This document shows positions 8,519-14,000 of a DNA stretch of 36,182 bases, one piece after another (the first letter of the stretch is position 1; every line of letters begins with the position of its first letter). A model generated the notes under the pieces. The model was given only the letters and a program-made list of their open reading frames with translations, did no database searches and was not told the origin of the DNA. The stretch comes from a virus, in the IMG/VR virus record IMGVR_UViG_3300046387_000022, positions 1 through 36,182 of that record; one strand, written 5' to 3'. A program made the translations under genes and the position numbers.

Positions 8519-8699
8519 TGAACCATTGAAGACTTTTTATGTGACTGTTGAAGAGACCGTCTCAGTGCAGGTGGCAGTGGAAGCGAAGAACGAAGAGGAA
8601 GCGCGATACCAAGCGGTAGATGACTGCGGCACGATAGTTCGTATGCCTATAACCACAGGTAAAGTTGTTATAGCTATATCTGAAAGGGAGCGGGTGTAG
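8511..8699 (+). CDS. small protein, 62 aa, second of a tandem pair
   Basis: The ATG at 8511 is preceded by GAGGAAG and overlaps the previous stop. The product contains FYVTVEETVSVQVAVEAK followed by EEEARYQAV, matching the preceding protein in length and motif order, which points to tandem duplication. The stop TAG shares its last base with the GTG start of the next gene. The function is unknown. Confidence 0.65.
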   Translation: MSDEPLKTFYVTVEETVSVQVAVEAKNEEEARYQAVDDCGTIVRMPITTGKVVIAISERERV

Positions 8700-8965
8700 T
8701 GGAGGATGAACTAGAAAAAATCGTGATCGAAAAAGGGGTGCTGTTGTTTGATAAGCAGTATAAGCATCAGCGCCTATATGAGAACACGTTAGACCGTATG
8801 TCTTTGGGGGATTCGTTTGTAGTGAATGATCCTTACGGTGGCAAGGTACGGGCGTTTCGGGTATCTGCCAGACGTAGGGGTTGGAACATTACGAGCCGTA
8901 AGATAACCAATGACGGTGAATACCGCGTCTGGTTGACAGAGAAGGACGGTAAGTCATGGACTTAA
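8699..8965 (+). CDS. small protein, VGDS...RVWR family, paralogue B
   Basis: The GTG at 8699 overlaps the previous stop and has AAAGGGAG a few bases upstream. The 88-residue product has the family pattern: helix, then MSLGDSFVV, a basic helix (RVSARRRGWNITSRK) and a terminal strand GEYRVWLTE. It is related in layout to the products at 8058 and 19172. Its position directly before the polymerase gene (ten-base overlap) suggests cotranslation. The basic helix could bind nucleic acid; this is inference. Confidence 0.65.
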   Translation: MEDELEKIVIEKGVLLFDKQYKHQRLYENTLDRMSLGDSFVVNDPYGGKVRAFRVSARRRGWNITSRKITNDGEYRVWLTEKDGKSWT

Positions 8966-11862: not shown

Positions 11863-12137
11863 TGCCGTACAAGAACAAAGCGGATCGTAAGAAGCAGAAG
11901 AACCCGCCAGTTGGCAGTCCCGCACACGAAGCTAGGATGGAGCGACAGCGTGCACGGCGTGCTATGGATAAGGCTGGACGCGATGCCAACAAAAACGGCA
12001 AAGCTGACAAGCGGGAAGGTAAAGATGTCAGCCACAACAAGATGTTGAGTAAGGGCGGCAGCAATAAAGACGGTGTGCGTGTGGAGAGCAGGAGTGCTAA
12101 CCGCAGTCGTAATGGCAAAAGCCCAAGACGTAGGTGA
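11862..12137 (+). CDS. small basic HNH-like protein, 91 aa
   Basis: The ATG at 11862 overlaps the previous stop (TGATG). The product is extremely rich in Lys, Arg and Asn. The C-terminal part, DVSHNKMLSKGGSN then RVESRSANRSR, resembles small phage proteins with a VDHxxPLSKGGSN...NRS pattern, a reduced HNH-type beta-beta-alpha metal motif. Here the usual Asp before His is Ser, so nuclease activity is doubtful. Nucleic acid binding is likely from charge alone. The family call is from memory of the pattern, so treat it as tentative. Confidence 0.55.
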   Translation: MPYKNKADRKKQKNPPVGSPAHEARMERQRARRAMDKAGRDANKNGKADKREGKDVSHNKMLSKGGSNKDGVRVESRSANRSRNGKSPRRR

Positions 12138-12223
12138 GAGAAGAGCTTAGGGGTATTCTCATGGGCGCGGGTATTGCAGCGTCTATATACTTCGTAGCGT
12201 TTATTTTGTACCTACTAGCTTAA
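12134..12223 (+). CDS. 29-residue single-span membrane peptide
   Basis: A GTG at 12134 overlaps the previous stop (GTGA) and opens 29 codons to TAA 12221-12223. After a charged start (REELRG), residues 8-28 form one hydrophobic helix, ILMGAGIAASIYFVAFILYL. The GTGA overlap is the same as at other junctions in this operon, which supports it being real despite its size. Small membrane peptides of phages often act in lysis timing or exclusion; no role is shown here. Confidence 0.5.
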   Translation: MREELRGILMGAGIAASIYFVAFILYLLA

Positions 12224-12238
12224 TTTTCTCATCTGAAA

Positions 12239-12247
12239 TGATATAAC
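12239..12247 (+). promoter_or_regulatory. extended -10 promoter of the candidate RNA gene
   Basis: TG-A-TATAAC matches the extended -10 form TGN-TATAAT with one mismatch; extended -10 promoters tolerate a poor -35 (here TTAATT at 12220-12225, spacing 16). A start six to seven bases downstream would fall at about 12254, the first base of the outer RNA stem. Confidence 0.5.
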
Positions 12248-12253
12248 TATGGT

Positions 12254-12448
12254 GTGGGCACAAAACGTCGGGCGAGCGGTGGCGTCCGACACTCCTAGCA
12301 GTGTAAGTCATACTGCTTAAAGAAAGGGTGAGATGAAGTGCGCTCCCACGACTAGGTTTTGTTGCTTGTTTCCCTAGATTATTGGCGTGAATCTCATCGA
12401 CCACCGCATTTTTACTGCGTGTAGTGGACACCCACTTCGCGCTTTTTT
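12254..12448 (+). ncRNA. candidate structured phage RNA, about 195 nt
   Basis: This 241-base gap (12224-12464) holds no convincing gene but strong RNA structure. A possible closing stem pairs GTGGG (12254-12258) with CCCAC (12345-12349), extended by CAC/GTG across a bulge. Inside are two hairpins: GTCGGGCG/CGTCCGAC (12267-12274 with 12283-12290, eight pairs including one G-U, eight-base loop) and AGCAGTGT/ATACTGCT (12297-12304 with 12310-12317, eight pairs, five-base loop). A third hairpin CTAGG/CCTAG (12352-12356 with 12373-12377) follows, then an intrinsic terminator. With the promoter at 12239 this reads as a complete RNA gene. An alternative is a cis-acting leader for the helicase gene. 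It matches no RNA class I know and is not a tRNA or tmRNA. Confidence 0.6.
12417..12448 (+). terminator. intrinsic terminator before the SNF2 gene
   Basis: Hairpin AGTGG-ACAC-CCACT (12423-12436), extended by GCG (12417-12419) pairing with CGC (12438-12440) across a small internal loop, followed by six T (12443-12448). It lies 17 bases before the helicase start, so it either ends a separate RNA or acts as an attenuator. Confidence 0.65.
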
Positions 12449-12464
12449 GCATGGAAGGGTATAT

Positions 12465-14000
12465 ATGAAAGTCATAGACAATAAAGCATTGTTACTGCGT
12501 CTGCGCGATCCTCAGAAAGTCACGAGTATTATCCCAAAGAGTAAGGAGTTATCAGATAACCGAGTGGTGGTTAACTGGGGTGTAGACGAGACTCACGTAC
12601 TCAAGAACTTAAACATCAACGCTCCGTCACCCATCGAAGGGCAGTACCAATGGACAGGTAAGTACAAACCTTTCGAGCACCAGAAATCTACGGCGGGGTT
12701 CCTCACACTCAATAAACGTGCGTTTTGTTTCAACGAACAAGGTACAGGAAAGACCGCCAGTGCTATTTGGGCGGCAGACTTCTTGATGAAACAAGGCCGT
12801 ATCAACCGCGCTCTTGTTATCTGCCCTCTATCTATCATGGACTCGGCGTGGCGAGAGGACTTATTCAGCTTTGCCATGCACCGTAAGGTGGACGTAGCGC
12901 ACGGTTCAGCAAGTAAGAGGACTGCTGTAATCGAAAGTGATGCAGAGTTCGTGGTAATAAACTATGACGGTGTAGCAATCGTAGCGGACGCTATAGCCAA
13001 TGGAGGTTTTGACTTAGTGATCGTGGACGAGGCGACTCACTACAAGAATGCTCAGACTGACAGGTGGAAAACGCTAAACAGGCTGCTCAGTCCTGACACA
13101 TGGCTATGGATGATGACAGGCACTCCCGCTGCACAAAGCCCACTAGATGCGTACGGTCTGGCTAAACTCGTTAACCCGAAAGCTGTGCCACGCTTCTTTG
13201 GTTCGTTCCGCGATCAGGTCATGTATAAAGTGACTAACTTCAAATGGGTGCCCAAGCCCGACGCCACAGACACCGTGTTCAATGCGCTGCAACCGGCGAT
13301 ACGGTTCACCAAGGAAGAGTGTCTGGATCTGCCTGACATCATATACACAACCCGCGATGTACCGCTCACTCGCCAGCAAGAAAAATACTACAAAGAATTA
13401 AAAGACCGCATGGTCATGGAAGCTGCGGAAGAGACAGTCACGGCAGCTACGGCAGCGGTCAACATGAACAAGCTGCTGCAAATCAGTTCTGGTGCGGTGT
13501 ACACCGATGACAAAGAGGTAGTGGAGTTCGACATCAAGCACCGATACAAGGTGCTGCGTGAAGTGATCGACGAGTCTAGCAAGAAGGTTCTGATCTTCGT
13601 GCCGTTCAAGCACACAATACAGCTACTTACCGACAAGCTACGCAAGGACAAGATACCCACCGAGGTCATCAGCGGGGCAGTAAAAGCTACTGACCGTACG
13701 CGCATATTCAAGGAGTTCCAAGAGACAGATACCCCGCGAGTGCTGGTCATCCAGCCACAGGCTGCGGCACATGGCGTTACGTTGACCGCCGCGAACACAA
13801 TCGTATGGTGGGGGCCAACCAGTTCGGTGGAAACATACGCCCAAGCTAACGCACGGATTCACAGGGCGGGGCAGGATCACAAATGTACGATAGTACAGCT
13901 ACAAGGGTCTCACATAGAAAAGCGCGTGTACGCACTACTAGATAACAAAATAGACACACATACAAAAATTATTGATCTTTACAAAGAAATACTTGATTAA
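12465..14000 (+). CDS. SNF2-family DEAD-like helicase/ATPase
   Basis: The 511-residue product has superfamily 2 motifs: YKPFEHQ, GTGKT (residues 93-97), DEAT (188-191), MMTGTP, VLIFVPF, then the C-terminal RecA-like domain with QAAAHGVTLTAA and QANARIHRAGQ (460-470). It belongs to the compact phage SNF2 branch that translocates on double-stranded DNA and probably assists replication or recombination. I chose ATG 12465 because GGAAGGG lies just upstream; an in-frame GTG at 12387 would start inside the terminator region. No extra accessory domain is visible. Confidence 0.93.
   Translation: MKVIDNKALLLRLRDPQKVTSIIPKSKELSDNRVVVNWGVDETHVLKNLNINAPSPIEGQYQWTGKYKPFEHQKSTAGFLTLNKRAFCFNEQGTGKTASAIWAADFLMKQGRINRALVICPLSIMDSAWREDLFSFAMHRKVDVAHGSASKRTAVIESDAEFVVINYDGVAIVADAIANGGFDLVIVDEATHYKNAQTDRWKTLNRLLSPDTWLWMMTGTPAAQSPLDAYGLAKLVNPKAVPRFFGSFRDQVMYKVTNFKWVPKPDATDTVFNALQPAIRFTKEECLDLPDIIYTTRDVPLTRQQEKYYKELKDRMVMEAAEETVTAATAAVNMNKLLQISSGAVYTDDKEVVEFDIKHRYKVLREVIDESSKKVLIFVPFKHTIQLLTDKLRKDKIPTEVISGAVKATDRTRIFKEFQETDTPRVLVIQPQAAAHGVTLTAANTIVWWGPTSSVETYAQANARIHRAGQDHKCTIVQLQGSHIEKRVYALLDNKIDTHTKIIDLYKEILD

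Follow-up and report, generated by a model that had tools for sequence, protein, structure and literature searches.

The window, that is, the whole stretch of DNA that was analysed, comprises one viral record of 36,182 bases. Upstream of its gene for an SNF2-type DNA helicase lies a gap of 241 bases (12224-12464), a length that results from a 29-codon ORF ending at 12223. This ORF (12134-12223) is conserved, lies between a gene of 91 aa and the RNA described below, and probably encodes a small membrane peptide. An earlier note on this DNA had placed the gap in an otherwise gapless operon; the size of the gap was correct, but a second one occurs at 2376-2488. Within the RNA element no plus-strand ORF of at least 60 aa was found, and ARAGORN, applied to the window and to 23 loci, detected neither a tRNA nor a tmRNA. 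A direct repeat with 14 of 15 positions identical joins 12406-12420, which overlaps the 3' end of the RNA, to 12486-12500 in the start of the SNF2 gene.

Within the gap, two eight-pair hairpins, an outer stem, a third hairpin and an intrinsic terminator had been described, with the fold beginning seven bases after a -10-like motif. All of these features were recovered on reading the sequence (Table 1), the motif ending at 12247 and P1 starting at 12254. The multi-stem fold as listed was nonetheless incomplete, for helices P4 and P6 and a pseudoknot between a hairpin loop and the 3' tail had been overlooked, and with them the two pseudoknots that define the fold. Similarly, the proposed RNA of about 195 nt stands as a new RNA belonging to a covarying family, hereafter type A, but not in its length, since the self-contained part measures only about 155 nt.

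Table 1 Features of the type-A RNA and its surroundings. Positions refer to the window unless a record is named
Feature	Position	Strand	Remarks
Extended -10-like motif TGATATAAC	12239-12247	+	Promoter function doubtful
Type-A RNA, self-contained double-pseudoknot fold	12254-12408	+	About 155 nt; block conserved in 42 distinct sequences
P1, 5' strand GTGGG	12254-12258	+	Partner 12345-12349; covaries
P2 hairpin, 8 pairs	12267-12290	+	GUCGGGCG/CGUCCGAC, loop AGCGGUGG
PKa GCGGTGG, loop strand of long-range pseudoknot	12276-12282	+	7/7 pairs with 12401-12407 in all 42; double changes at 6/7 pairs
P3 hairpin, 8 pairs in the window	12297-12317	+	AGCAGUGU/AUACUGCU; length and sequence vary among members
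A-rich joining segment AAGAAAG	12320-12326	+	Conserved AAAGAA type; A columns invariant or nearly so in A1
P4, 5' strand GGTGAGAT	12327-12334	+	8/8 pairs with 12391-12398 in all 42; double changes at 5/8
Internal loop GAAGT	12335-12339	+	Conserved in A1; faces GA/CA at 12389-12390
P6, 5' strand GCGCT	12340-12344	+	Partner 12384-12388
P1, 3' strand CCCAC	12345-12349	+	Outer stem; P1 crosses P4/P6
P5 hairpin CUAGG...CCUAG	12352-12377	+	Variable; differs among members
P6, 3' strand GGCGT	12384-12388	+	Partner 12340-12344
P4, 3' strand ATCTCATC	12391-12398	+	Partner 12327-12334
PKb CCACCGC, 3' strand of long-range pseudoknot	12401-12407	+	Partner PKa
Intrinsic terminator	12417-12448	+	Hairpin 12417-12442, T6 12443-12448; in MFE fold; 18 nt before SNF2 start
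SNF2-type DNA helicase gene	12465-14000	+	Downstream of RNA; phrog_62, E 3.3e-111
Type-B sites	L010:2512-2783		Also L005, L014, L022, L027, L030, L034, L036, L236 and others
Type-C sites			Just 3' of type A in L016, L019, L034, L038, L101, L202, L215 and L228

Fold and covariation of the type-A RNA

Folded as a single sequence, the window element was mildly unusual (z = -1.77; 14 of 200 shuffles were equally stable), and relatives were therefore needed to settle the reality of the fold. A scan with the SNF2 protein yielded 80 viral loci. The nearest relatives (L002-L004) carry the same element. A diverged copy, with joint changes in two stretches that are not adjacent, was seen in L034 and L036 (SNF2 protein 85% identical). 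Further copies were collected with three degenerate DNA patterns and with a fourth that left the outer P2 pairs free; this one recovered almost the same copies and, in addition, L334 and L335. Once chance matches had been removed, 42 distinct sequences remained. Alignment A1 contains 41 of them, forming 19 single-linkage clusters at 85% identity with a median pairwise identity of 56%. Three members, G030 (found by the model, R1), L334 and L335, stand outside both the alignment and the model. R1 assigns the window 122.4 bits (E 1.3e-32 at 12249-12409), a match by construction since the window is a member of the model.

From 5' to 3', the RNA is composed of P1a, P2, P3, an A-rich joiner, P4a, GAAGU and P6a, followed by P1b, P5, P6b, CA or GA, P4b, two bases and PKb. 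P2 consists of GUCGG/CCGAC with conserved GNGA and CRU and holds PKa inside its loop. Because P4/P6 crosses P1 and PKa/PKb crosses all other helices, the type-A RNA is a double pseudoknot, an unusual fold.

In A1, 95.9% of the pairing cells hold standard pairs compared with 83.2% in shuffles, double-sided changes occur in 19 of the 30 pairs, and covariation scores 0.450, where shuffles average 0.196. None of 500 shuffles attained the double changes or the covariation, and no measure was reached by more than one of them. When the partners were slid against each other, pairing dropped to 35-49% and covariation to 0.119 or less. Over the 42 sequences, pairing was complete in the pseudoknot (294/294) and in P4 (336/336), counts to be read with caution, since PKb and P4b were placed by best pairing and the search pattern dictated P2. 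P6 lies at a fixed offset and played no part in any search; it is still 95.1% paired, with double changes at all five of its pairs. P2 itself is near-invariant among the members found by a pattern that fixes it; the pattern with free outer pairs revealed the compensatory changes UUCGG/CCGAA and CUCGG/CCGAG in L334 and L335. The three members outside the alignment form 21/21 pseudoknot, 24/24 P4 and 15/15 P2 pairs with new sequences, and P4 of L334/L335 is wholly different (GACAGCAU/AUGCUGUC). Since shuffled versions of the 3' stretch of the window element gave the full joint match of 15 pairs in 29 of 20,000 cases, this match is modest evidence in a single sequence, and it is the agreement across clusters that carries the case. 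Conserved pairing in related phages, which the earlier note had proposed to look for, is present with very strong comparative support. On these comparative grounds we regard it as virtually certain that the element represents a structured RNA family.

The same helices bear on the strand. In P1, the pseudoknot, P4 and P6, 82 G-U but only 4 A-C combinations were counted. As an A-C combination corresponds to G-U on the opposite strand, the excess of G-U indicates that selection acts on the plus-strand RNA, which runs in the same direction as the genes on either side.

In a degenerate scan covering 84,980 genomes of bacteria and archaea, 64 hits appeared, none of which was counted as a member, the conserved P2 strand and loop being missing; the pairing test alone does not separate such hits, many chance hits reaching 7/8 plus 6/7 pairs. 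Searched by blastn with five members, phage isolates yielded short matches only. One of these, exact over 24 nt and located in Erwinia phage Pastis, scored 9.6 bits with the model and was rejected.

Putative promoter and terminator

The RNA had been credited with its own promoter and its own terminator. The sequence TGNTATAAY occurs five times in the window compared with 2.1 expected, and 9 of 100 shuffles reach five. An extended -10 did not recur upstream of 19 representative members, and the motif was found in the closest relatives of the window only. Near chance frequency and not conserved in the family, it cannot be upheld as a promoter of the RNA.

The terminator hairpin is present, and its attribution has to be revised. 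A scan of the gap for a consensus promoter and terminator listed nothing, the hairpin at 12417-12448 being passed over because of a 1x1 internal mismatch. The same hairpin precedes SNF2 in L005, L006 and L014, where the slot is occupied by another RNA element and type A is absent; it therefore belongs to the slot upstream of SNF2 and not to the RNA family. No terminator directly follows the fold in L036, L205, L213 and L218, one is lacking after most other members, and the set of promoter, fold and terminator was seen only in the window and its close relatives.

Just before the ribosome-binding site of SNF2, a terminator-like hairpin is found in the window, L005, L006, L014, L020 and L041, with compensatory changes recognizable by eye. 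Such conservation suggests that the hairpin may control SNF2 by read-through or attenuation.

Gene neighbourhoods, companion elements and possible role

Type-A RNA was found in about 60 viral records, counted as distinct contigs plus G030, L334, L335 and the window; R1 matched 58 loci in one set and 11 in another, the two sets overlapping. Exactly one copy was present in 24 of 30 whole records searched and none in the other six, counts that concern records, many of which are fragments. Relatives of near-complete size without type A exist (G003, 58.9 kb; G007, 58.2 kb), and the RNA is therefore dispensable.

The type-A loci fall into about nine gene neighbourhoods. In the clade of the window the RNA precedes SNF2. 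Elsewhere it precedes a 412-aa gene of unknown function, follows a Sak4-like ATPase, or is located between an SSB-like gene and a DUF3799 nuclease, between a DNA polymerase-like gene and a PDDEXK_1 nuclease, or between a ThiS-like and a ThiF-like gene (L236), the SSB-, Sak4-, ThiS- and ThiF-like names being read from the sequence and not profile hits. In L101 a tRNA, called by Rfam and separate from the element, lies directly upstream. The RNA has kept to the replication/recombination part of the genome. Downstream of the element in L335 (~8635-8778), an integrase-like ORF was noticed by eye, which suggests that a temperate phage is also among the carriers.

A single copy in 24 of 24 match-bearing records and shifting neighbour genes are the traits of a stand-alone non-coding RNA, and they favour an RNA gene of its own over the leader of SNF2 that had been considered in the earlier note. 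Together with the absence of a fixed neighbour, ends that lie in helices and, in one case, a tRNA on the 5' side, the single copy fits a processed RNA acting in trans. We give a probability of roughly one half to the reading that type A is a stand-alone, non-coding double-pseudoknot RNA which is processed from an operon transcript and acts in trans. It would be made within the transcript of the early/replication operon and released most likely by processing, exonuclease trimming or cuts in the flanks leaving the compact fold. Processing is plausible because both ends are in helices, P1 at the 5' end and the 7-bp pseudoknot at the 3' end. The freed RNA would then act in trans during infection, most likely by binding a host or phage protein or ribonucleoprotein.

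A possible, albeit doubtful, alternative is a cis-acting intercistronic element, i.e. a riboswitch, a translational or attenuation leader, or a stabiliser of the mRNA end, serving the downstream gene; in the window, it would work with the terminator to attenuate SNF2. The conserved unpaired nucleotides of the core (GNGA, AAAGAA, GAAGU, CA) are aptamer-like, and confinement to the replication/recombination region would suit a cis function shared by the operon. The 3' end of the RNA, formed by the pseudoknot strand, lies 22-30 nt ahead of the next start codon in L205, L213, L218 and L036, and in the window the RNA is followed by the terminator. A cis leader should, however, remain linked to one gene or pathway, and the shifting neighbours argue against it: the downstream genes are unrelated between lineages, and no gene or pathway is conserved over the neighbourhoods. 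Neither is a cis function favoured by the single copy in every type-A-bearing record, nor by a terminator that is kept where the slot holds another element and is missing after most other members. Attenuation of SNF2 is thus disfavoured as the function of the family, while it may operate in the lineage of the window alone.

The slots of type A also harbour companion elements (Table 1). Type B, about 60 nt long and covarying, forms a three-way junction in which the loop CCCGUC is paired to GGCGGG on the 3' side; in an alignment chosen by hand 95.6% of the cells are paired, a value reached by 0 of 500 shuffles. It is present one to three times, with up to four tandem copies also noted, usually beside type A or replacing it, and is absent from the window. 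Its variants alter both pseudoknot strands (CCCAGC/GCUGGG in L014, CCCACC/GGUGGG in L236). Type C, noted by inspection, is a conserved element of about 90 nt with GGGGTACGGCC...CAACCGGATGCTCGG...GCCCTGCCCC followed by a T-run. Upstream of SNF2 in L064, L074, L081 and L045, elements similar to type B were observed that are longer and have one more hairpin upstream (CCGACCTAGCCCCATCGGTGAGCGAAGCGGGGCT core); L081 has two tandem copies. The intergenic slot can be seen as a hot spot where phages exchange structured RNA elements.

Such swaps, the shifts in location between related genomes, and a compact multi-pseudoknot fold with a conserved core would also suit an RNA with self-cleaving or other catalytic activity, or the RNA component of a small mobile element hopping between intergenic sites of phages. 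We consider this improbable, given the single copy per record, an intergenic position at every locus inspected, and the lack of both a common adjacent protein and a deducible cleavage site. The Cas12f1-like/TnpB domain PF07282 was absent from 21 records, some of which may be fragments, whereas the control search was positive in 6 of 14 named genomes. One neighbour, in one lineage group, weakly resembles the IS110-type Transposase_20, below the Pfam cut-off. A link to the bridge RNAs of IS110 was rejected. The omega RNAs of TnpB/IscB elements are likewise compact, pseudoknotted RNAs of phages and transposons; an assignment of type A to the omega RNA of TnpB was rejected as well, there being neither the domain in these records nor a match in Rfam.

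A role in DNA replication, such as that of an origin transcript or a primer RNA, would agree with a single-copy, structured transcript in the replication module. It is highly improbable, as large relatives lack the element and GC skew is positive across 12.2 kb, changing sign near 19.5 kb, where the coding strand switches.

Beyond the stand-alone, trans-acting RNA favoured above, we propose, speculatively and with little confidence, that type A represents a novel RNA machine of phages (a ribonucleoprotein component, a host-factor decoy or a ribozyme) and forms with types B and C a set of interchangeable islands, a modular non-coding layer of these genomes. So far, few non-coding RNAs of phages have been found to adopt complex tertiary folds, and most of these have no settled function. 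The small size of type A makes it amenable to structural work and reporter assays, and its covariation model is clean; with its recurrence in many uncultured phages, a search with this model could turn up an isolate.

Comparison with known RNAs

The claim that the element matches no known class held for the whole covarying family. Searched against Rfam 15, the window element had no match at the gathering threshold or at E<=10 except for an lncRNA match below threshold on the opposite strand, and divergent members had no gathering-level match at the element, with sub-threshold noise only for L236. Neither type A nor type B matched any Rfam family, and type C is not in Rfam. Family and fold of type A matched nothing in Rfam 15 or in the open-licence literature, and an earlier automated listing in catalogues of viral structured RNAs is possible. 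Phage-borne structured RNAs with unresolved function are as such already known.

Type A resembles the core of group I introns in the order of its crossing helices, P1 corresponding to P3 and P4 to P7 of the intron, with hairpins in between. It differs in being intergenic and much smaller, no intron sequence elements were recognised in it, and it has no Rfam match. The int-alpA RNA (RF02996) is likewise short, structured and phage-associated; its model has 71 positions and no double pseudoknot, and does not match the window element. On a contig related to the window phage, a match to int-alpA RNA was observed (L058:4392-4463). For type B alone, a predicted likeness to the flavivirus xrRNAs concerns the three-way junction, a hairpin loop that pairs with the 3' tail, and tandem copies. 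Type B occurs in the mRNA context of a DNA phage and has no sequence relation to xrRNAs; the likeness is one of topology.

GOLLD and ROOL are ornate non-coding RNAs of phages and prophages with multiple pseudoknots, often found near tRNAs and of unresolved function; many GOLLD members exceed 800 nt (PMC12286853). Both are much larger than type A and differ from it in sequence and fold, and neither gave an Rfam match at gathering thresholds. Being, like type A, phage-borne, multi-pseudoknotted and non-coding, they are nevertheless its closest counterparts in kind.
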